The translations under genes and the position numbers were made by a program. A stretch of 50,580 bases of DNA, taken from positions 1 to 50,580 of the IMG/VR virus record IMGVR_UViG_3300020174_000010; one strand, 5' to 3'. Under the pieces are notes generated by a model. The model saw only the letters and a list, made by a program, of their open reading frames with translations, searched no databases and was not told the DNA's origin. Of this stretch, positions 2,476 to 50,571 are shown in pieces. The stretch comes from a virus. Each line of letters starts with the position of its first letter. Positions within the stretch are counted from its first letter, which is position 1.

Positions 2476-3045
2476 ATGATTGAAATTAATAATGAATTGC
2501 AGGCAGACGTTCTTATTGTTGATGGGGCATTTGATGAGACTTTCATTCAGTGGTCAAGTGAATATTTTACTAAGAGATATAATTGGAAGTATGGTAATCG
2601 TAGTGGCGCGGTAAACGATGAGAGCATTTTCTGGATTTCAATAGATAGTGAAATGGGAATGAAGATTGAAGATGATCCTCTAGTTACATATATTCAATTA
2701 GTAGCACAACGAGAATTTCAGTATCACCTAAATGAAGTTGATGACATTTATCTTAACGGACACACATATGAGTTAGACGGAACACTTCATTCTGATGTGC
2801 CTACAACAAAGAGTATTGGTAAAAACTTATGGACTTTATTATACATGCCAAATTATTTAAATACAGACCTGATAGGTAACTTTGAATTTATGCGCGAAGA
2901 AATTGATTATAAACCAGGTCGATTAGTAATGTTTCCTTCAATTCATACTCATAGAGGACTTGCACCTAAAAATAAATCAGACTTGAGAATTACTCTTGCC
3001 TGGAAATGTATGAATATTACCTGGAAGAAACAAGATAACGCTTGA
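2476..3045 (+). CDS. 2OG-Fe(II) oxygenase
   Basis: The protein has 189 residues. It shows the ligand set of a 2OG-Fe(II) oxygenase: HSD in LDGTLHSDVP (about 108-114), a TLLYMPNYLN strand, then GRLVMFPSIHTHRGLAP carrying the distal His, and an Arg in SDLRITLAWK suited to bind 2-oxoglutarate. The layout resembles small phage prolyl-4-hydroxylase-like enzymes. The substrate is unknown. A good ribosome site (AGGAGAAAG) precedes the ATG. The TGA stop (3043-3045) lies within the -35 hexamer of the next promoter, so the cassette ends here. Confidence 0.8.
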   Translation: MIEINNELQADVLIVDGAFDETFIQWSSEYFTKRYNWKYGNRSGAVNDESIFWISIDSEMGMKIEDDPLVTYIQLVAQREFQYHLNEVDDIYLNGHTYELDGTLHSDVPTTKSIGKNLWTLLYMPNYLNTDLIGNFEFMREEIDYKPGRLVMFPSIHTHRGLAPKNKSDLRITLAWKCMNITWKKQDNA

Positions 3046-3070
3046 CAAAGTTTCCTATATAGTGTATGAT
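3042..3070 (+). promoter_or_regulatory. sigma70-type promoter for the methyltransferase genes
   Basis: TTGACA (3042-3047), 17 bp spacer, TATGAT (3065-3070). The -35 hexamer contains the TGA stop of the upstream oxygenase gene. The expected transcript starts near 3077 and leaves a leader of about 23 nt before ATG 3100, without a clear Shine-Dalgarno sequence. Confidence 0.85.
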
Positions 3071-3099
3071 GAATAAATTAGTAAAGTTGAGATTATAGT

Positions 3100-4656
3100 A
3101 TGAAGCATTTTTATGAGAAGAATAATTATCTATTAGACCACGAAGTCAACAAGACATTCGAAGAGGTTCTATGGATGACAGATGACGAGTTCAGACAGTG
3201 GTTGCGCGATATGCGTAGAGAAGTTGTCTACTCATGGGATACGCTTGGTCTACCACCTAGAGTTGGTTGGGATGAGCAAAGCATTATTGACCAGTTCAAT
3301 AAAATGTCATCATTCAATGTGAAAGACTTTGAGTGTTATAATGAAGAGACAGGTGAAACTGATGTTATTCGTAACACTAGTGTAGTGGGTAATGCCGCTA
3401 ATCAGTTCTTTCCTACAATGATGAAAACAAAGATTGTTTATAACGATATCAGCAAAGCAAAATCTATCTACGACCACTTTGTTGATGAAGATTTATTTCA
3501 AAAGGTATACACATATGGTCACCGTCATTTCAAGCGCGATAGTTTCTATCATTATTCTAACCCTATTAAGGCGGGCGAACTACTGGAGTTTGGATCCAAT
3601 CGTCACACTGCTAATAGGGGTGTTGATTTTATTAATTGGTTTGAAACTACATGTCGCACATACGATACACATGATTACTGGTTGAAACCTGATAAAGAGC
3701 AAGAGTACACAGGTTATGATGATAAACTACGAGGTGTAAATTGGTTAACTCTAACGAGAGATGAAATCGAAACACTGAACATTCCTGATAAGTGTAAAGT
3801 GAACATGAAAGAAGAATTCGATGTTTATCAAATTATGTACTTTAAGAAAGGTCAGAAAATCTTTCCATTAGGTTTCAAACCTTTTAGAATTTCATGGTGT
3901 CAATATGCAGTCAATTTTCCTCCTCTTACAGCAAAGTATCTTTATGAGAAATATACTGAACATTTTAAAGACCAGTCTACTATTCGTATTTGGGACCCTA
4001 GTGCTGGTTGGGGTGGTCGCATTCTGGGTGCTATGTCTGTTCGTGATGACCGTTCAATACATTATATTGGTACTGATCCCAACACTGACCACACTGTTGT
4101 ATTGGAAGATGGTACCAAGTCAACAAAATACGAAGAACTAGCGAGATTTTTTAATGAAAAAACATACAGAGGTAACGGACTCTTCCCACACACAAACACA
4201 TACGAAATTCATCAAGTCGGTTCAGAGACCTTTGCGTGTGAGGAAAACAGCATCGACATGGTATTCACTTCACCACCATATTTCGCGAAAGAAGCGTATA
4301 GTGAAGATGAGGAGCAGTCATATAAGAAGTTCGGACAATATGACGCATGGGTAGAGGGGTTCTTGCAACCGACTTTAGAGAATGCATATAAATACTTAAA
4401 GAGTGATAGATACTTATTGTGGAATATCGCTGACGCAAAGTTTGGCAATGAAATGCTACCTCTTGAAGGTGACAGCATTAGAATTTGTGAAGAACTTGGT
4501 TTTGAATATGTTACTACCTTAAAGATGGCACTTGCACAGATGCCAGGTGGTAACAGAGTTGATGAGGAGACAGGCAAACCACGAGCAAAGAATTTTTGCA
4601 AAGTGAATGGCATCTGGTTAAAATATGAACCAATATTCGTTTTTTATAAAAAGTAG
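3100..4656 (+). CDS. DNA N4-cytosine/N6-adenine methyltransferase-like protein
   Basis: The protein has 518 residues. A SAM-binding motif I-like loop DPSAGWGGR (about 298-306) precedes the catalytic motif IV TSPPYF (about 390-395), the signature of amino-methylating DNA methyltransferases (N4-C or N6-A). The sequence then continues as a Rossmann-like domain to the C-terminus. The first 270 or so residues are an extra domain I do not recognise; it may hold target recognition. No restriction partner is adjacent. It could protect phage DNA, mark it, or serve base modification. It is the first gene after a strong promoter, suggesting early expression. The recognition sequence cannot be read from the protein. 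Confidence 0.8.
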   Translation: MKHFYEKNNYLLDHEVNKTFEEVLWMTDDEFRQWLRDMRREVVYSWDTLGLPPRVGWDEQSIIDQFNKMSSFNVKDFECYNEETGETDVIRNTSVVGNAANQFFPTMMKTKIVYNDISKAKSIYDHFVDEDLFQKVYTYGHRHFKRDSFYHYSNPIKAGELLEFGSNRHTANRGVDFINWFETTCRTYDTHDYWLKPDKEQEYTGYDDKLRGVNWLTLTRDEIETLNIPDKCKVNMKEEFDVYQIMYFKKGQKIFPLGFKPFRISWCQYAVNFPPLTAKYLYEKYTEHFKDQSTIRIWDPSAGWGGRILGAMSVRDDRSIHYIGTDPNTDHTVVLEDGTKSTKYEELARFFNEKTYRGNGLFPHTNTYEIHQVGSETFACEENSIDMVFTSPPYFAKEAYSEDEEQSYKKFGQYDAWVEGFLQPTLENAYKYLKSDRYLLWNIADAKFGNEMLPLEGDSIRICEELGFEYVTTLKMALAQMPGGNRVDEETGKPRAKNFCKVNGIWLKYEPIFVFYKK

Positions 4657-5308
4657 AAATCTATTCAATAATCCTCCTGTTCCATATGAGGATTTTGACA
4701 CGGCATATAATTATGATGAAATTGTAGGCATTGAAAAATATGCCTACAACACCTATCGTCATTATGCGTTACCTTATATCGTGAATCCAAAAGAGCAAAC
4801 TGTAATGGATATAAAATGCGGTAAGGGATATGGCGCATCTATCTTAAAAGCACAATATGGATTTAAGAAAGTAATTGGATATAGTAATGTCCAAGAGTTG
4901 ATAGATGAGTGTAAGATTAGACATAGTAATATCCATTTCTACAAAGACTTTATTATGTCAAAACAGATAAATGCAGACTTGATTTTTTCTATGAATGCAT
5001 TCAATGATTATGATAATAAGAGTGCATTATTGTTAAGATTGCGCCAAGCAGTTGCGGATAATGGTACTATAATCATTATTCAAGAAACTGCCGACCAAGA
5101 AGAATATAAGCGATATGAAGAAATTTTAGTGAAAACTCATGGATTGAAGCAGGTATATCATAGCGATATAACAAAAGATGTTGTACTTGCCGTAGAAAAA
5201 ATTGCGGATAAAAATCAAGTACTATCTCCCAGATATGCTCATTTCGCATCGAATGCACATAACCCAAATTATAAAATATTTTCATCAATCTTTAAAAATA
5301 GTGCTTGA
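4625..5308 (+). CDS. SAM-dependent methyltransferase-like protein, divergent
   Basis: The protein has 227 residues. Residues about 58-75 (VMDIKCGKGYGASIL) look like motif I of class I methyltransferases, followed by a strand and acidic turn (KVIGYSNVQELIDEC) and a NADLIFSMNAFNDY segment in the motif IV position, then a DNGTIIIIQE strand. This is the Methyltransf_11/25 pattern of small-molecule or protein methyltransferases rather than a TSPPY DNA enzyme. The start overlaps the previous gene by 32 bp in another frame, so translation is probably coupled. Its TGA stop lies in the next -35 box. The substrate is unknown. Confidence 0.6.
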   Translation: MNQYSFFIKSRNLFNNPPVPYEDFDTAYNYDEIVGIEKYAYNTYRHYALPYIVNPKEQTVMDIKCGKGYGASILKAQYGFKKVIGYSNVQELIDECKIRHSNIHFYKDFIMSKQINADLIFSMNAFNDYDNKSALLLRLRQAVADNGTIIIIQETADQEEYKRYEEILVKTHGLKQVYHSDITKDVVLAVEKIADKNQVLSPRYAHFASNAHNPNYKIFSSIFKNSA

Positions 5309-5333
5309 CATATAAATAATTCTGTGGTATAGT
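5305..5333 (+). promoter_or_regulatory. sigma70-type promoter, predicted leaderless transcript
   Basis: TTGACA (5305-5310), 17 bp spacer, TATAGT (5328-5333). Only six bases separate the -10 from the first ATG (5340), so the transcript should begin at or next to the start codon. The -35 overlaps the upstream TGA stop. Confidence 0.8.
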
Positions 5334-5339
5334 TTACCT

Positions 5340-5486
5340 ATGATGATGATTATTGAAGCACTATGGTTTGGACTAACACTCCCTTTCAGAATTATTTACT
5401 GGACAATGTGTTGCATTTTTGCAACAGTTGGAGTGTTTTTCGGATTATTTTTCATTCTTGCCGTAATTAGTGCAATTATCGCTTGA
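5340..5486 (+). CDS. Small membrane protein (48 residues)
   Basis: A 48-codon frame starts with three consecutive ATGs (5340, 5343, 5346) and ends at TGA 5484-5486. It encodes an almost entirely hydrophobic peptide with a long run of F, I, L, V, A and G from about residue 24 to the end, enough for one or two membrane spans; a Trp/Arg patch lies near the N-terminus. There is no Shine-Dalgarno sequence; the strong promoter ends six bases before the first ATG, so leaderless translation is expected. The gene sits exactly between two promoters, which supports it being real. The function is unknown; small early membrane proteins in phages often act on the host envelope or on superinfection. Confidence 0.6.
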   Translation: MMMIIEALWFGLTLPFRIIYWTMCCIFATVGVFFGLFFILAVISAIIA

Positions 5487-5511
5487 CATTAGTTCAAAAT
5501 TATGCGATAAT
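5483..5511 (+). promoter_or_regulatory. sigma70-type promoter of the CobT-like gene
   Basis: TTGACA (5483-5488), 17 bp spacer, GATAAT (5506-5511). The hexamer overlaps the TGA of the small membrane gene. The -10 and leader (ATGCGATAATGTATACATAA) recur almost identically before the CobS-like gene. Confidence 0.88.
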
Positions 5512-5543
5512 GTATACATAATGATGAGAAAAGAGGTGACGTA

Positions 5544-7850
5544 ATGAGTTTTAGCGAATACAAAGTAAAAGAGGTCAAGTCAAACCTTGCAAAATTGCTT
5601 GCAATGGAAAACTTGCAAGTTGAATTCGCAAATGTCGAGACTGCTAGTTTCGATGTAAAAAACCGTATACTCTTACTTCCTAATTACTCGCATACTGACC
5701 AAGATGTTATTGACCTCTTTGTTGGTCATGAGGTTTCTCATGCTCTCTTTACGCCAATGGATGGTCTAGCAACTCTAGAAGATAAACCTAAGAATTTTCA
5801 TTCTTTCGTTAATGTTGTAGAAGATGTTCGTATCGAAAGAAAAATTCAAGACCGTTATCCTGGTTTACGAAAGTGCTTCTATTCTGCATATTCAAAACTG
5901 AACGCCGCAGATTTCTTCAATATCGCCGAGCGTGATGTTGATAAAATGCTATACATTGACCGTCTTAACATCAAAGCAAAACTAGGCACTCAAATTGATA
6001 TTCAATTCAACGAACAAGAATTGCAATTCAATGCCAGAGCGAAAAAAACAGAAACCTTTGATGAGGTTCTACAGTTAACCGAAGAAATTTGGGAGTACTG
6101 TAAAGACGAGTTAGAAGAAAAATCTAATGATAACGATATGTCAATGGATGATTATCTAAGTACTGGTGCTACTGAAAATCAAAATGAGAAGGATCAGGAA
6201 GATAAAGATACTGGCGAAGGTAAACAGTCAGATAATGCTCAGTCTGGTGATAGTGTTCTATCAGGTAAAGAGCAGTTAAGTGATACTGATGATTCCGAAT
6301 CCGATGCATCAGAAGGTGAAGGTGACCAATTGCCTGAAGCAAAAGGTCCTAGTATAGATGATGATGTTGAAACTCCTATGGATTCTCAACAACCAGAAGA
6401 GCAATCTGGTCCTGGTGCGTTAACAGATATTGCATCGCGTAAAAGTATGCGCGAGAATATCATTACTGATCCTGAGCGGCAGATTGGTTATATTGACATT
6501 CCAAAAGATATAAAACTTGAGAATTTTATTATCAGTCACGATAATGTTGTTAAGGAGTTACATGAACATTGGTTTGGTGGTAATGGTGACTTTTCTTCTT
6601 TCGCACGCCGCAAAGCATTGACGCTGACCGCTAAAGAATTTAAAACAAAGAACCAGAAGGTAATCAACTACCTTCACAAAGAATTCGAAATGAAAAAAGC
6701 GGCGATGCAATATGTTCGTTCAAGTGAGAATAAGACTGGTGTTCTTAACACTGAAAAATTATATTCTTACAAGTACAATGAAGATATTTTCAAAAAAGTT
6801 ATGAGCATTCCTAACGGTAAGAACCACGGTATCGTATTCTTCCTTGATTGGTCTGGTTCTATGGCAGAAAATATGAAAGGCACTATGGAGCAATTGCTTT
6901 GTCTTGCGCTATTCTGTAAAAAAGCAAACATACCTTTTTCAGCATATGCATTCACTAGTGAATATGAAAAGTCTGTTAGAAGGGCAGAAGGTCTACCAAA
7001 GAATTCACAATCAACAAACTATAATGAAATTGATTGTAGTGGTGTAACACTCCTAGAACTTTTTGGTGACAAGATGAATAATGTCGCATTTCAGAATTCA
7101 TTAGAATGCTGTTTGGCAATGTCATCAATGTTTGAGCGTAGAACCTCTGGTGACTTTCGTTGGTGGGGACTTCCTCGCAACTATTATCTTGGTGGTACAC
7201 CTCTTGATTCCGCATTGGTTGTTGCTCACAAACTAGTTAGTAAATTCAAGTCAAAGAACCGTATCGAAATTTGCAATGCAGTATTTTTGACTGATGGTTC
7301 ATCACACACCATTAGTGGTGCTTATAGTGATATAGAGCGTCCTGATTATTCGGTTCATGATAATCTTTATGCTGGCAGTTTGAGAATTCGCGATAAGACT
7401 GCCAGAAAAGAAACTGAAATTTCTAGAGTTTCGAACCTTGGGTATCGCCGTAGAATGAGTATTACTAAAGCACTATTCGGTTCTTTGCGCTCCGTTACTG
7501 GTTGCACTACAGTTGGTTTCTTTATCGCCAGCGGCAGTGATACAAAATATGCATATGAAAACTTTGTGGCGACTAATTCCCAGTTAGAAACAACTACTGC
7601 ATTCTTTGGTGGATACGATGAGTTTCGTAAAGTGTTTACGAAAGAAAAATCTGTAGTTGCTCATAATAGTGGTCTGGATGAGTTCTATATTCTGAAAGGT
7701 GGTAAGCACCTAGAGGTTGGTCCAGAAGAATTGACAGTTGATAGTGATGCTACTAAAGCGCAGTTGACCACAGCATTCAAGAAACTGACCAAAGGAAAAC
7801 TTCAGAACCGTGTGATTTTGAGCAAATTTATTGACAAGATTGCCGCATAA
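5544..7850 (+). CDS. cobT: CobT-like VWA protein with N-terminal HExxH metallopeptidase-like motif
   Basis: The protein has 768 residues. The C-terminal third is a von Willebrand A domain like the CobT subunit of cobaltochelatase: MIDAS DxSxS in LDWSGSM (about 434-440), the MIDAS Thr in GGTPLDSA (about 550) and the Asp in LTDGSSH (about 582). The middle (about 195-290) is a long acidic, low-complexity linker, also typical of CobT. The N-terminus carries GHEVSHALFTP (H62-E63-x-x-H66) and a downstream NVVEDVRIE, the zinc-ligand pattern of gluzincin-type peptidases. With the CobS-like AAA+ protein downstream it probably forms a MoxR/VWA-type remodelling machine; no CobN chelatase is present, so cobalt insertion is only one possibility. 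The ribosome site is AAGAGGTGA. Confidence 0.75.
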   Translation: MSFSEYKVKEVKSNLAKLLAMENLQVEFANVETASFDVKNRILLLPNYSHTDQDVIDLFVGHEVSHALFTPMDGLATLEDKPKNFHSFVNVVEDVRIERKIQDRYPGLRKCFYSAYSKLNAADFFNIAERDVDKMLYIDRLNIKAKLGTQIDIQFNEQELQFNARAKKTETFDEVLQLTEEIWEYCKDELEEKSNDNDMSMDDYLSTGATENQNEKDQEDKDTGEGKQSDNAQSGDSVLSGKEQLSDTDDSESDASEGEGDQLPEAKGPSIDDDVETPMDSQQPEEQSGPGALTDIASRKSMRENIITDPERQIGYIDIPKDIKLENFIISHDNVVKELHEHWFGGNGDFSSFARRKALTLTAKEFKTKNQKVINYLHKEFEMKKAAMQYVRSSENKTGVLNTEKLYSYKYNEDIFKKVMSIPNGKNHGIVFFLDWSGSMAENMKGTMEQLLCLALFCKKANIPFSAYAFTSEYEKSVRRAEGLPKNSQSTNYNEIDCSGVTLLELFGDKMNNVAFQNSLECCLAMSSMFERRTSGDFRWWGLPRNYYLGGTPLDSALVVAHKLVSKFKSKNRIEICNAVFLTDGSSHTISGAYSDIERPDYSVHDNLYAGSLRIRDKTARKETEISRVSNLGYRRRMSITKALFGSLRSVTGCTTVGFFIASGSDTKYAYENFVATNSQLETTTAFFGGYDEFRKVFTKEKSVVAHNSGLDEFYILKGGKHLEVGPEELTVDSDATKAQLTTAFKKLTKGKLQNRVILSKFIDKIAA

Positions 7851-12963: not shown

Positions 12964-13632
12964 ATGAATGACTTTATGGCATCACTTGAAACGCAAATAA
13001 GTTTTGCTAATAGTGATATTGATATTATAAAACCTTTCGGACCTGCAATATTAAAAACAAAAGTTTCGAATGAAACACTTAAAAGTTTTCAAGATAAATT
13101 TGCAAGTTTGGATTATAATGGAAAATTATTACCTACATTTCCTGTATTAGGTGATCCTAATTGGGTTGAAGATACTAAAAATTCTGTTGTTAAGAGTTAT
13201 GACTTATATAAATGGTTTCATTCTCAAGCAGATGTTAAAACAGAAATAACTTCTATAGTCTCATCTTACTTAGTTGCATTATATAATGAACCTGTGGAAG
13301 CAAGAGATTATAAACGAAAATCTATCACCGTATATTCTATATGGGCAAATAGACAACTTGCTAATACATGGCAACCTAGACATATACATGCCAAGGGTAT
13401 ATCATTTATTGTTTATGCTCACAAACCAAAAATAAATGACTTCCCACATGCTGGTGATATTCAGTTCTTTTATGGTGAAAATAATGAGTATAATGAGAAT
13501 TTATATTTCATATCACCAGAAGAGGGAGATATGTTAGTATTCCCTAGTTGGTTACAGCATCAAGTGATACCTTATCACAGTGAAAATTTAAGGGTATCAA
13601 TTGCAGGAAACGCGGAAATATTGACTAAATAG
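12964..13632 (+). CDS. 2OG-Fe(II) oxygenase (TIGR02466-like)
   Basis: The protein has 222 residues. The family signature is clear: an N-terminal KPFGPAILKTKVS, a metal-site HIHAKGISFIVYAHKP (about 138-153), AGDIQFFYG, then GDMLVFPSWLQHQVIPY with the distal His and NLRVSIAGNAEI at the end with the 2OG-binding Arg. The protein at the window end (49933) is a paralogue with the same elements. The ATG immediately follows the regA stop. It ends the clamp/regA operon before a terminator. The substrate is unknown. Confidence 0.8.
   Translation: MNDFMASLETQISFANSDIDIIKPFGPAILKTKVSNETLKSFQDKFASLDYNGKLLPTFPVLGDPNWVEDTKNSVVKSYDLYKWFHSQADVKTEITSIVSSYLVALYNEPVEARDYKRKSITVYSIWANRQLANTWQPRHIHAKGISFIVYAHKPKINDFPHAGDIQFFYGENNEYNENLYFISPEEGDMLVFPSWLQHQVIPYHSENLRVSIAGNAEILTK
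13625..13631 (+). promoter_or_regulatory. Late-promoter-like CTAAATA over a stop codon
   Basis: CTAAATA overlaps the Lys-stop end of the oxygenase gene and resembles marine T4-like late promoters. A terminator hairpin lies 39 bp downstream, before hsp20, so its activity is doubtful. Confidence 0.3.
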
Positions 13633-33382: not shown

Positions 33383-34396
33383 ATGTTGCACACTGAACTT
33401 ACATACATTCATAGTATCTCGCACAAACTAAGAAATTTTAAGAAAAAGAAAGACTATCTTTATAATTTCTCATGTCCTTTGTGTGGTGATTCCACGAAGA
33501 AAAAAACAAAAGCAAGAGGATATCTATATCGTGTCAAAGACATGATGTTATATCGCTGTCATAACTGCGGTGTATCTACTACTTTTGGTAAACTTCTAGA
33601 AAAACTTGATGCTGACACCTATAAACGCTATATTTTCGAAAGATATAGTAATGGTGAGCAGGCGCACACCATGCACGACACGATTGAGTATCAACCTGTC
33701 GTAATCAAAGAAACAACCCTCCTAGACACCGTTAAAACCGTTTCTAGACTATCTTTAGACCATCCAGTACGCAAGTATATGCAGATGAGAAAGATACCTG
33801 AAGAGCGTTGGGATGAGTTGCGACTAGTCAATAAGTTTTACACATTCGTCAACAGAATATTACCTAATAAGTTCACTAATGTAGACCAAGACCACCCTAG
33901 ACTTATCATACCATTCTATGACAAGACTGGTAAACTAATAGGGTTTCAAGGTCGCGCATTCGGTAAAGAGATGCCGAAGTATATTACGATTATGCTTGAT
34001 GAGACTGCACCTAAACTTTATGGACTAGACAAAGTGAACTTTTCCGAAAAAATCTATGTTGTTGAAGGTCCAATCGATTCCATGTTTATAGATAATAGTA
34101 TTGCTATGGCAGGTGCAGATGCAAGCGGTTTAGAGAAACTTGATTGTGCATACAATAACTATGTATTTGTGTATGATAATGAACCGCGTAATCCAGAAAT
34201 TGTCAAGCGTATGAAGAAACATATTGACAATGATGATGCAATTGTGATATGGTCCGACAACATCGGCGAAAAAGATATTAATGATATGATTATTGCAGGA
34301 AAAAGCAAGTTAGACATTATGGACATTATAAGTAAGAACACACATAAAGGTCTAAGTGCAAGAATGAGGTTTAGTGAATGGAAGAAATGCGAATAG
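33383..34396 (+). CDS. 61: DNA primase (T4 gp61-like)
   Basis: The protein has 337 residues (T4: 342). The zinc-binding domain shows CPLCGDSTKK (about 31-40) and CHNCGVST (about 59-66). The Toprim-like catalytic part has VVEGPIDSMF (about 227-236) and VYDNEPRN (about 258-265), as in bacterial and phage primases. It makes primers for the lagging strand with gp41. The transcript is predicted to be leaderless, unusual for a core enzyme. It overlaps the downstream oxygenase gene by 19 bp. Confidence 0.92.
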   Translation: MLHTELTYIHSISHKLRNFKKKKDYLYNFSCPLCGDSTKKKTKARGYLYRVKDMMLYRCHNCGVSTTFGKLLEKLDADTYKRYIFERYSNGEQAHTMHDTIEYQPVVIKETTLLDTVKTVSRLSLDHPVRKYMQMRKIPEERWDELRLVNKFYTFVNRILPNKFTNVDQDHPRLIIPFYDKTGKLIGFQGRAFGKEMPKYITIMLDETAPKLYGLDKVNFSEKIYVVEGPIDSMFIDNSIAMAGADASGLEKLDCAYNNYVFVYDNEPRNPEIVKRMKKHIDNDDAIVIWSDNIGEKDINDMIIAGKSKLDIMDIISKNTHKGLSARMRFSEWKKCE

Positions 34397-34896
34397 ATAT
34401 AGTTGATGGGTTTATTCTACCTGATGAATTGCATAAGATAGAAAAATTAATAGTAGACCTGACATGGAATCCATTTGAGGGTGATGTTTATGAAACTAAA
34501 ACTTATCCTAGTGGCATCAGTGCCGAACTTGAAGGCGAGATTAGAGAAATATTAGATGAGCGTGTATTAGAACAAGCATATGCTCTTACATCTACTAAAC
34601 TAAGAATTAGTAGAGCATATGTAAATGGTTGGAAACCTAATGAAATTAGTTTTCCTCATAAAGACATGGTTCATACAACATGCTTAATATATCTAAACAG
34701 AAAGTATGACCGAAAGTATGGTGGTGAGACATTATTTTATGATGAAACAGGCGATGCTCATTATGCAATAACACCTACACCTATGAGAGCGGTGTTTTTT
34801 GATGGGTGGATAGAGCATAAAGCAACATCATTCAACCATCTATTCATGGGCGGATACAGACACACAATAGCATATAAATTAGTGGAAGAGGAATAA
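34378..34896 (+). CDS. 2OG-Fe(II) oxygenase
   Basis: The protein has 172 residues (ATG 34378; ATG 34387 is also possible). The ligands fit a small prolyl-hydroxylase-like enzyme: FPHKDMVHTT with His-X-Asp (about 97-103), LIYLNRKYD, GGETLFYDETG, then VFFDGWIEHKAT with the distal His (about 144) and a YRHTIAYKL end with the 2OG Arg. It starts inside the primase gene and is followed by a degenerate relative. The substrate is unknown. Confidence 0.8.
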   Translation: MEEMRIDIVDGFILPDELHKIEKLIVDLTWNPFEGDVYETKTYPSGISAELEGEIREILDERVLEQAYALTSTKLRISRAYVNGWKPNEISFPHKDMVHTTCLIYLNRKYDRKYGGETLFYDETGDAHYAITPTPMRAVFFDGWIEHKATSFNHLFMGGYRHTIAYKLVEEE

Positions 34897-46915: not shown

Positions 46916-47749
46916 ATGATTTTAGTTGATTTGAACCAAGTAATGATTTCTAATATGATGATGAACCTTCAAGGTGCTACATCTATTGATGAAAATCTAA
47001 TCCGTCACATGGTATTTAATAGTCTACGCATGTACAAGCAGAAGTTTGGACAGAAGTATGGCGAGATGATTATCTGTTGTGATGATAAGAACTATTGGCG
47101 TAAAGAGGTATTCCCACACTATAAAGCATCTCGTAAAGGTGACCGAGAGAAGTCTCAGTATGACTGGAACGCAATCTTTACATGTCTGAATGGTGTGCGT
47201 GATGAGATACGCGAGAATGCGCCATACAAAGTCTTACAAGTAGAACATGCAGAAGCAGATGATATCATCGGCACAATCTGTCATGAGCATGGACAGCAAT
47301 TAGGTGGCGACCCTATTCTTATTCTCTCTGGAGATAAAGACTTTCAACAGTTGCAAGAGTATAGCAATGTTGAGCAGTTCTCGCCTATCTTAAAGAAGTT
47401 TCTTAAATGCTCAGACCCTAGTGGGTATTTGCTTGAGCATATCATCAAAGGCGATAGAGGCGATGGCATCCCTAACATTCTATCACCTAGTGATGTATTC
47501 GTAACAGGTGGTCGGCAGAAACCTATTACTAAGAAGAAAATTGTCGAATTTCTTACAACTCCTCCTATTGATTATGCTAGATTTAAAGAAAATTCCATTC
47601 TTGTTGACCTCAAGCAAACTCCAAAAGATATGCAAACGACTATTTTAGAGCAACTAAATAGTTCTATGCAAGGTAGCAAGCGAAAATTGCTTGACTTGTT
47701 CATATCTAAGAGAATGAATTTATTAATAGAGTGTATTGAGGAATTTTAA
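46916..47749 (+). CDS. rnh: RNase H / 5'-3' exonuclease (T4 Rnh-like, FEN family)
   Basis: The protein has 277 residues (T4: 305). FEN/5'-nuclease acidic clusters are visible: ILVDLNQV (first Asp, about 2-9), YGEMIICCDDKNYWR (about 48-62), VEHAEADDIIGTI (about 108-120), LILSGDKDFQQL (about 132-143) and a GDRGDGIPN helix-hairpin turn (about 180-188). It removes RNA primers and flaps from Okazaki fragments. It is the first gene after its own promoter; the carbamoyltransferase overlaps its stop. Confidence 0.92.
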   Translation: MILVDLNQVMISNMMMNLQGATSIDENLIRHMVFNSLRMYKQKFGQKYGEMIICCDDKNYWRKEVFPHYKASRKGDREKSQYDWNAIFTCLNGVRDEIRENAPYKVLQVEHAEADDIIGTICHEHGQQLGGDPILILSGDKDFQQLQEYSNVEQFSPILKKFLKCSDPSGYLLEHIIKGDRGDGIPNILSPSDVFVTGGRQKPITKKKIVEFLTTPPIDYARFKENSILVDLKQTPKDMQTTILEQLNSSMQGSKRKLLDLFISKRMNLLIECIEEF

Positions 47750-49377
47750 TGAAACTACTAGCAATGCATATTGCTGGACATGATGCCAATGTGACTTATT
47801 ATGATGGTGAAAAAGTTCAGTACTGTAAGATTGAACGTATAGTGCAAAAAAAGCATTATGCCTATACTCAAGCAACTTCTGACTATTACAATTGGATTCA
47901 GGTCAAACAAGACTTACATTTCTTAAATATCGATTGGAACAACTTAGACACAGTATGCTTTAGTTATGCCGGTCGAAGAAGTGCTGATTGGGTGGATAAG
48001 TCTCAACCATTTCGCACCGATGACACATTAGTAGCAGAGGTAACACCAGAACAGTTTGACTATTGTTTTCCTAATTTAAATATAACTGCCAAGAAATATA
48101 TTAGAGTAGACCATCATTATGCTCATCATCTATCCGCACGATTTCTGTACGGAGATGAGTATACCAGCGGTGTTGTTATAGATGGTGCTGGAGATTACTG
48201 GAATCACATCAGTGTATTCAAAGATGATAAAAAAATCATAAAATATGACTTTCAAAATATGTTTTCAATCGGTGAGTTATATACAAATTGGGGTAATCGC
48301 TCACTAGGCAAAGAATATGCGGATGTAGACGAACTAGCACAGATAAGTCAAGATACTGCTGGCAATGTAATGGGTCTTATGTCATATGGTAAGTTTAATG
48401 TTCCATTTGCAAAGAAAGTCGCAAATCTTCATCTAGAAGAATGCGTTGAGGCACTATTGAACGAACACGCTTTTGCTCGACAGTTCATGAACTCTCATCA
48501 TCACTATCATGAAAAGACATGGCAATCGGCAAAACCTGCCGTTGCCGCATGGTGGTACGTTGACTACATGCACACATGTCAAGAAATACTAAGAGAAAAG
48601 ATAAGAGATTTTTTTGCTAGACACTTTACTTCACAAGATAAAATTACATTCTCTGGTGGAGTAGCACACAATGTTCTCATAAATCAAACTCTAAACGACC
48701 ATTTTGTTAATCTTGCTATACCTCCGTGTGTAGGTGATGAGGGATTGTCACTAGGTGCTATGAAATATCTAAGCACTCTGTATAATCTAGATTTATCATT
48801 TCCTACAGGTCAAGCGGCACAGATTACGCCATCTGTTATTCCAGATAAACACATTTCTATCATAGCACAAGAACTATGTAACGGAAAGATTGTAGCAACA
48901 TGTTCAGGTGAAGGTGAGATAGGACCTAGAGCATTAGGTAATCGCTCACTATTATATCGCACCGATATGTTGAACGCACCAAAATACTTTAACTCTAGAG
49001 GTTTGAAGAGGCGTGAGTGGTGGCGTCCATATGGCATTAGTATATTAGAAGAAGATATGGAATCATACTTAAACACAACAACTCTATCTCCATATATGCT
49101 TCATGTTGCCAATCCAACTAGTTTAGGTAAAGATGTATTGTCTGGTGTTCTACATGTAGATAATACAGTGAGATATCAAACAGTGAATGAAAGCAATGGA
49201 TGGTACTACAAACTGCTAGTAGAACTAAAGAACCTGACAGGACACGGTGTAGTTGTTAACACTTCACTAAACTGTCAAGGCGCGCCTTTGATTAACACAC
49301 CTATTGAAGCACTCTCATTTCATCATCAGTATAAACCTGATGCATCTTTTATTGGAGATGAAATGTATGTTTCATAA
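47749..49377 (+). CDS. Carbamoyltransferase (NodU/TobZ family)
   Basis: The protein has 542 residues. The Kae1-like N-terminal domain carries the metal site VDHHYAHHLSARF (about 120-132), VVIDGAGD (about 143-150) and SGGVAHNVLIN (about 302-312). The C-terminal domain has EGEIGPRALGNRSLL (about 389-403) and RREWWRPYGISIL (about 423-435), the carbamoyl-phosphate/adenylate site of TobZ. It transfers carbamoyl groups to hydroxyl groups of sugars, antibiotics or, in some phages, hypermodified bases. It lies beside two oxygenase-fold genes. Confidence 0.92.
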   Translation: MKLLAMHIAGHDANVTYYDGEKVQYCKIERIVQKKHYAYTQATSDYYNWIQVKQDLHFLNIDWNNLDTVCFSYAGRRSADWVDKSQPFRTDDTLVAEVTPEQFDYCFPNLNITAKKYIRVDHHYAHHLSARFLYGDEYTSGVVIDGAGDYWNHISVFKDDKKIIKYDFQNMFSIGELYTNWGNRSLGKEYADVDELAQISQDTAGNVMGLMSYGKFNVPFAKKVANLHLEECVEALLNEHAFARQFMNSHHHYHEKTWQSAKPAVAAWWYVDYMHTCQEILREKIRDFFARHFTSQDKITFSGGVAHNVLINQTLNDHFVNLAIPPCVGDEGLSLGAMKYLSTLYNLDLSFPTGQAAQITPSVIPDKHISIIAQELCNGKIVATCSGEGEIGPRALGNRSLLYRTDMLNAPKYFNSRGLKRREWWRPYGISILEEDMESYLNTTTLSPYMLHVANPTSLGKDVLSGVLHVDNTVRYQTVNESNGWYYKLLVELKNLTGHGVVVNTSLNCQGAPLINTPIEALSFHHQYKPDASFIGDEMYVS

Positions 49378-49933
49378 ACAGAAAGCATTTTATACACCAA
49401 TATGGATTGATAAAGTAGAATTGGACGATAGTTTTCAAACTGCACTAATAGAAGATATTCAAAACTACATCAAAAACGATACCGGTGATAATTACAGAAC
49501 AATGAAAGATGGTCGTAAAGGTTACTATAGTACTTCTATGACATATAGTAATTGCAAACTACAAAGTCTGAAGATGATAGTACAGACTATAGAAGAGAAA
49601 GTCATAACAGAAATTGATCCTGATGTATTTGTTGCAGATTTTGGATTAAATAGCAACGCGACAGGTACATATCAACCAATAGCAAATGATGCTACAGTTA
49701 AATACAACTGTATGTTTATCATAGATTGTGATGCTGATAAACCAGAGTTTAATGGTGAATATAGACTAATAAATCCTAATTCATATGCAAGTCCATTATA
49801 TCATTCTTTACCTGTAAACAAATATCAATTGTTTGTATGGCCCGGACCTGTTTTCTTTGAGATGTTAACTTATTATGGTGAAACAGATAGACTTTCCTTA
49901 CTACTAAATTTTGAAAGAAAGGGCAAGAAATAA
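49367..49933 (+). CDS. 2OG-oxygenase-fold protein, degenerate
   Basis: The protein has 188 residues from ATG 49367 (GGAG nine bases upstream). The N-terminal FYTPIWIDKVELDD and the end SLLLNFERKG resemble TIGR02466-type oxygenases, but the metal-ligand His-X-Asp and distal His are not visible: the second strand pair reads YNCMFIIDCDAD and VWPGPVFFEM. It is probably not catalytic, or it binds something else. It contains the window's only RGCY site (GGCC at 49839). It overlaps the carbamoyltransferase and the next oxygenase gene. Confidence 0.5.
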   Translation: MFHKQKAFYTPIWIDKVELDDSFQTALIEDIQNYIKNDTGDNYRTMKDGRKGYYSTSMTYSNCKLQSLKMIVQTIEEKVITEIDPDVFVADFGLNSNATGTYQPIANDATVKYNCMFIIDCDADKPEFNGEYRLINPNSYASPLYHSLPVNKYQLFVWPGPVFFEMLTYYGETDRLSLLLNFERKGKK

Positions 49934-50571
49934 TGATTTTAAATTTAGAAGTTATGCAAGATGCATTACCTGGTGTTCTAATACATCCTTTTGGACCAGT
50001 AATCTATAAAACAGAGATTGAGAGTGATACTTTAGATAGATTGACAGAGTTATGTGAAAAATCACGCAACAACGATGATGTCCGTCCTACTCTTGCTGGC
50101 AATCTGAGTGATGAGAGACTACTCATTATTGATGATAAGACATCACAGGAAATAATCGACCACTGCGGTGTTTTACATGCGGCAATGTTTGGAAAAACTA
50201 AACGTCACCTAAGTCATTTCACAAGAAATATGTTGATAGATGGTATATGGGTAAATTATCAAAAGGCATTTGAATGGAATCCTCTACACAGTCATACCGG
50301 AGATATTAGTTTTGTTATATACATATCTAATCCAATCGACTATGATTTAGAAAGAAAGCATCCAACGCAAAGAACAAATACACCAACAGCAGGACATATT
50401 TCGTTTCGCTATGGTGAGAAGCACCCAATGAGTAGTCATACATTTATGCATAAACCGGTCGCCGGAGAGATTTTCTGCTTTCCATCGTGGTTAGAGCATC
50501 AAGTGTTTCCATTCACAACAGAAGGCATTGAGCGTATCAGCATCGCTGGTAACCTTAGCATACATAAATAG
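49933..50571 (+). CDS. 2OG-Fe(II) oxygenase (TIGR02466-like)
   Basis: The protein has 212 residues. It contains LIHPFGPVIYKTEI (opening), NPLHSHTGDISFVIYISNP (metal His-X-His/Asp strand, about 117-135), AGHISFRYG, then GEIFCFPSWLEHQVFPF with the distal His (about 185) and ERISIAGNLSIHK with the 2OG Arg. It is paralogous to the protein at 12964-13632. The substrate is unknown; the carbamoyltransferase neighbour suggests that hydroxylation may create an acceptor for carbamoylation. Confidence 0.8.
   Translation: MILNLEVMQDALPGVLIHPFGPVIYKTEIESDTLDRLTELCEKSRNNDDVRPTLAGNLSDERLLIIDDKTSQEIIDHCGVLHAAMFGKTKRHLSHFTRNMLIDGIWVNYQKAFEWNPLHSHTGDISFVIYISNPIDYDLERKHPTQRTNTPTAGHISFRYGEKHPMSSHTFMHKPVAGEIFCFPSWLEHQVFPFTTEGIERISIAGNLSIHK
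50563..50570 (+). promoter_or_regulatory. Late-promoter-like CATAAATA at the window end
   Basis: CATAAATA lies over the His-Lys-stop codons of the last gene and could drive a gene beyond the window. Confidence 0.35.

Follow-up and report, generated by a model that had tools for sequence, protein, structure and literature searches.

Known carbamoyltransferases and oxygenases

Phage base carbamoylation is already known from a 5-hydroxymethylcytosine (5hmC) carbamoyltransferase of a sewage phage contig, validated by MetaGPA (Yang et al. 2021, PMC8670742). Three residues, W408, G421 and R423 in TobZ, separate the carbamoyltransferases of cytosine-modified contigs from those of unmodified contigs, and group-1 glycosyltransferases are reported as neighbours of the latter (PMC8670742). 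Carbamoyltransferases and 2OG oxygenases are also known cargo of cyanophages, having been described among their accessory genes in 2010 (PMC3037559).

The cyanophage enzymes are Nol-like carbamoyltransferases (PHROG 1601; T4-GC 721 in S-SSM7 and P-SSM7) from marine T4-like phages. Three records have them near psbA with no oxygenase directly beside them, S-CAM9 presenting two about 2.4 kb away. Cyanophage S-SSM7 (L077) also contains an annotated Mom-like DNA modification gene (2915-3538) about 1.5 kb upstream of its carbamoyltransferase (5001-6536). TobZ (PDB 3ven), a member of the same superfamily, acts on an aminoglycoside and is not coupled to a pseudo-oxygenase. The nearest described oxygenases are those of the TIGR02466/PF13759 group (3bvc and 2rg4), both with 2OG-type folds and function unknown. 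Marine T4-like phages commonly carry carbamoyltransferases and small 2OG oxygenases whose presence is unexplained.

Organisation of the locus

The stretch analysed, referred to here as the window, is the 50,580-bp IMG/VR record IMGVR_UViG_3300020174_000010. The phage of origin is a marine T4-like myovirus. T4-type genes in the window comprise the clamp, clamp loader, DNA polymerase, UvsX, a DnaB-type helicase, primase and ribonucleotide reductase, the genes for the last sharing about 72% identity with their cyanophage counterparts. The right end is formed by four overlapping genes and the record stops nine bases past the last one:

46916..47749, + strand: rnh, T4 RNase H-like 5'-3' exonuclease (PF02739, 1.1e-16; PF09293, 4.6e-14; PHROG 107)
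47749..49377, + strand: CT, predicted NodU/TobZ-superfamily O-carbamoyltransferase, 542 aa (PF16861, 1.8e-45; PHROG 1601, 1.3e-100)
49367..49933, + strand: PSEU, putative TIGR02466-type oxygenase-fold protein lacking the His ligands, 188 aa (profile methods; blastp to L016)
49933..50571, + strand: OX, predicted intact PF13759 2OG-Fe(II)-type oxygenase, 212 aa (PF13759, 8e-13; PHROG 81, 2.6e-27)

The overlaps are 1 nt between rnh and CT (base 47749), 11 nt between CT and PSEU and 1 nt between PSEU and OX (base 49933). The original prediction of a carbamoyltransferase overlapping a degenerate and an intact oxygenase was borne out by these three intact overlapping ORFs directly after rnh. The latter is a core gene, with pairwise identities of 60-99% within the lineage, and marks the upstream boundary of the cassette. 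The three cassette proteins are identical in L022 and 98-99% identical in L002, and both of these contigs run on past OX into a PHROG 461 gene (function unknown), followed further downstream in L002 by a P4H-type oxygenase.

The carbamoyltransferase

CT is an intact full-length protein of the NodU/TobZ type, as had been proposed. The match to PHROG 1601, 'Nol-like carbamoyltransferase', spans residues 1-540, and both halves of the superfamily are present together with the catalytic motifs. No score was obtained on CT with the PF02543 profile, indicating a divergent N-terminal half. The best solved relative is TobZ (E 2.4e-32), with the GPRALG-x-RS and RREWWRP motifs conserved, and the cyanophage enzymes are 32-33% identical. 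Among 12 homologues the motifs H-D, HHxxH, DGxGD, GGVAHN, GPRALG-x-RS and REWWRPYG are invariant or nearly so; given these conserved motifs, CT should be active. The dN/dS between the window and L002 is 0.89 on 15 changes, too few to show constraint.

The two oxygenase-type proteins

OX is a predicted 2OG-Fe(II)-type oxygenase of the TIGR02466/PF13759 group. It scores above the PF13759 cut-off, while the match to TIGR02466 (33.3 bits) is below the curated cut-off of 62.5. Residues W106, N108, H119, H121, F183, P184, H189, V191 and N207 are invariant among 17 homologues. The putative metal site is formed by H119-x-H121 and H189, an HxH...H arrangement where the textbook motif of 2OG oxygenases is HxD/E...H, and an Arg is found before the last strand. 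The AlphaFold model (pLDDT 86.4) gave 3bvc (E 8e-8) and 2rg4 as top PDB matches with Foldseek, and the structural matches also include OGFOD1, PolD, P4H and PHD2.

The reading frame of PSEU is best taken from the ATG at 49367 to the stop at 49933. It has no Pfam or PHROG match of its own, and the annotated phage collection contains no relative. The single distant orthologue was identified in L016 (27% identity, blastp E 1e-13), likewise between CT and OX. The window protein aligns end to end with TIGR02466-type phage oxygenases (hhalign E 2.6e-6, 167 columns) and scores 23.4 bits (E 4.7e-6) against a phage-oxygenase HMM built without it, the best of 2,000 shuffles reaching 8.7 bits; the L016 copy alone scores only 6.4 bits. 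The AlphaFold model is weak (pLDDT 53) and its top-ranked Foldseek neighbours are mostly 2OG oxygenases, none of them significant. In view of this weak model, the oxygenase fold is assigned to PSEU with moderate confidence. Granted the fold, the absence of the ligands is predicted with high confidence: the His-x-His and distal His positions hold other residues in both orthologues.

The original prediction of a ligand-less oxygenase-fold gene thus stands with that reservation on the fold, and both proteins are TIGR02466-like rather than TET/JBP, OX by its Pfam family (PF13759) and PSEU by the profiles that it fits. The two PSEU copies share motifs such as FYTP, KGYYS and NPNS, and the recurrence of the gene between CT and OX in so distant a phage argues against a fresh pseudogene.

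Two possible origins of PSEU were rejected. As a duplicate of OX it would be expected to resemble the OX-type HMM, which gave -0.2 bits, the TIGR02466-type profile fitting far better. As a relic of the small upstream oxygenase found in the second carbamoyltransferase clade (see below) it scored 7.3 bits (E 0.36), and hhalign covered 18 columns only. Three other contigs of the lineage (L010, L012 and L013) have two tandem oxygenases after CT; in the window and L016 PSEU holds the first of these places.

Conservation of the cassette

The scan with the CT profile gave 62 loci, among them the window lineage (clade 1) and a separate carbamoyltransferase clade (clade 2). In clade 1 an oxygenase-profile match lies directly beside CT in 13 of the 15 non-redundant loci, that of the window being PSEU, and OX or PSEU is beside CT in 14 of the 15 contigs once the L016 PSEU is counted. 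The partner is one or two OX, or PSEU plus OX. In clade 2 an oxygenase is directly beside CT in 18 of 22 loci, often upstream. Among the remaining genes of these loci, oxygenases account for 14% (clade 1) and 27% (clade 2), giving odds ratios of about 5 for adjacency, with p values (5e-4 and 1e-5, respectively) that serve only as a guide since the loci are related. The coupling that had been proposed is therefore conserved and above background in two clades. The exception is L009, with CT lacking an adjacent oxygenase and another oxygenase downstream, indicating that OX next door is not obligatory.

An outgroup view was obtained with an rnh scan. In most sampled phages outside the lineage whose rnh is 51-60% identical, the gene directly after rnh is PHROG 461, and CT follows rnh in none of them; a few contigs end too early, and in L086, as in L016, rnh is followed by other genes. 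In the window lineage the slot between rnh and PHROG 461 is filled by CT with OX and sometimes PSEU, inserted together. Pairwise identity averages 78% for rnh and 75% for PHROG 461, with 52% for CT and 46% for OX; CT and OX are a rapidly evolving cassette between conserved flanks. The clade-1 contigs may stem from a single insertion and are not counted as independent events. No bacterial relatives were confirmed in a search of genome contigs, and PADLOC gave only very weak matches on CT, PSEU and OX.

Proposed function and alternative explanations

The explanation that we favour, with a rough probability of 45%, is a hydroxylate-then-carbamoylate cassette acting on a non-base acceptor. CT, PSEU and OX would form an accessory cassette inserted between the core genes rnh and PHROG 461. 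OX would most likely hydroxylate a C-H on the acceptor. CT would draw on carbamoyl phosphate and ATP to cap a hydroxyl of that same molecule as a carbamate. The most likely role of PSEU, which has presumably lost metal-dependent catalysis, would be that of a non-catalytic partner to OX or CT. A sugar, a peptide or a small molecule is a likelier acceptor than the bases of the virion DNA. The non-base acceptor was chosen because of the loss of restriction sites, the absence of PF00303 and PF00145 from the related records (fragments), and residue states and partners unlike those of the 5cmC pathway, where the partner is of the thymidylate-synthase type. The location among DNA-metabolism genes counts against this explanation.

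A rather unlikely alternative is that CT and the oxygenases are unrelated cargo of a common insertion hot-spot, CT modifying a hydroxyl already present and OX having a protein or metabolite as its substrate. Marine T4-like genomes are indeed rich in 2OG oxygenases, as the background shares of both clades indicate, and the three cyanophage records and L009 have a carbamoyltransferase with no oxygenase directly beside it. However, adjacency exceeds background in two clades and on different sides of CT, the reading frames overlap, and CT has an oxygenase or PSEU as its neighbour in nearly all clade-1 contigs. Quite improbable, and compatible with any of the other readings, is that the PSEU gene is in decay and has no function, CT and OX being the working unit. 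The lost ligands and the absence of PSEU from most clade-1 relatives would agree with decay, as would the four differences between the window and L002, which are too few to show constraint. Yet the ORF is intact in two phages whose copies, only 27% identical, are both ligand-less, both placed between CT and OX, and share the motifs given above.

Hypermodification of DNA or nucleotides by the oxygenase and CT, one of the two possibilities in the original prediction being modified DNA, fared less well and is unlikely. OX would make a hydroxymethyl base or oxidise a methylated one, CT would carbamoylate it and the virion DNA would be protected. Such chemistry exists in phages, the 5hmC enzyme sharing with CT the phage origin, the superfamily and the expected use of carbamoyl phosphate and ATP. 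The cassette also sits between rnh and other early or DNA genes, and CT has Thr in place of the TobZ Trp408 that clade-2 and cyanophage enzymes keep. Against this, CT shares only 22% identity with the validated enzyme, which falls on a very long branch of the tree with unsure placement. The states at TobZ 408/421/423 are T/G/R in the window CT, I/C/T in the validated enzyme and W/G/R in clade-2 and cyanophage carbamoyltransferases. CT departs from TobZ at one of the three; Gly421 and Arg423 are kept, and two of the three states of the 5hmC enzyme are missing. The hydroxymethylase of thymidylate-synthase type (PF00303) was found in none of 12 related records, fragments of 10-103 kb (9 controls positive), and the C5-cytosine methylase (PF00145) in none of 10, also fragments (10 controls positive). 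PF12851 (TET/JBP), to which OX does not belong by Pfam, had no match in the records and none in the control either.

The avoidance of RGCY and GCWGC noted in the original prediction is real and very strong. The window contains 2 RGCY against about 819 expected (both strands), the one site left being at 49839 inside PSEU; GCWGC is found 0 times against 83 expected and GATC 52 times against 395. The near-loss of RGCY and GCWGC and the strong depletion of GATC run through the whole lineage (L002-L033, L081-L086), in every clade-1 relative, and are not shared by clade-2 phages. This avoidance had been taken as support for modified DNA but points the opposite way, because no avoidance is detectable in phages whose cytosine is hydroxymethylated: avoidance affects 2.4% of host restriction sites in hydroxymethylated coliphages, versus 55.8% in relatives lacking the enzyme (PMC6286503). 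Judged by this loss of sites, DNA bases are probably not the target. Host Type II restriction may lie behind the loss, or else a phage-encoded nuclease sparing its own genome. Partial avoidance of RGCY and GATC, not of GCWGC, was also observed in HTVC008M.

The other acceptor that had been suggested, a modified envelope sugar, may be right and has indirect support. Related carbamoyltransferases stand among glycosyltransferases in other marine phages, those of several clade-2 phages adjoining PF00534 or PF04488 members. The group-1 glycosyltransferase family (PF00534) was identified in none of the clade-1 records, and the glycan reading is for that reason borrowed from distant relatives.

Significance and other observations

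In the limited library searched, no paper described a carbamoyltransferase-oxygenase cassette at the rnh/PHROG 461 slot or its pseudo-oxygenase. A fixed-slot, fast-evolving cassette with a dead oxygenase is a concrete unit to assay, and it sets this carbamoylation apart from the known DNA 5cmC pathway. A bolder and not very probable reading is that of a new tandem oxygenase/carbamoyltransferase pathway, in which the dead oxygenase would serve as scaffold or specificity subunit, a novel carbamate would be placed on a phage or host molecule, and an arms race would drive diversification at the fixed locus.

The window comprises at least five genes of the 2OG-oxygenase type in 50 kb (600-1736, 2476-3045, 12964-13632, 34378-34896 and 49933-50571). 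Two of them, 2476-3045 and 34378-34896, match PHROG 274, 'DNA endonuclease V', yet their Pfam matches are 2OG oxygenase domains (weak in 2476-3045), and the PHROG label looks wrong for both. Between 600 and 5305 an Asp/Arg beta-hydroxylase, a PLP-enzyme-like protein, an oxygenase, an N4/N6 DNA methylase-like protein of 518 aa and a second methyltransferase are found in a row.
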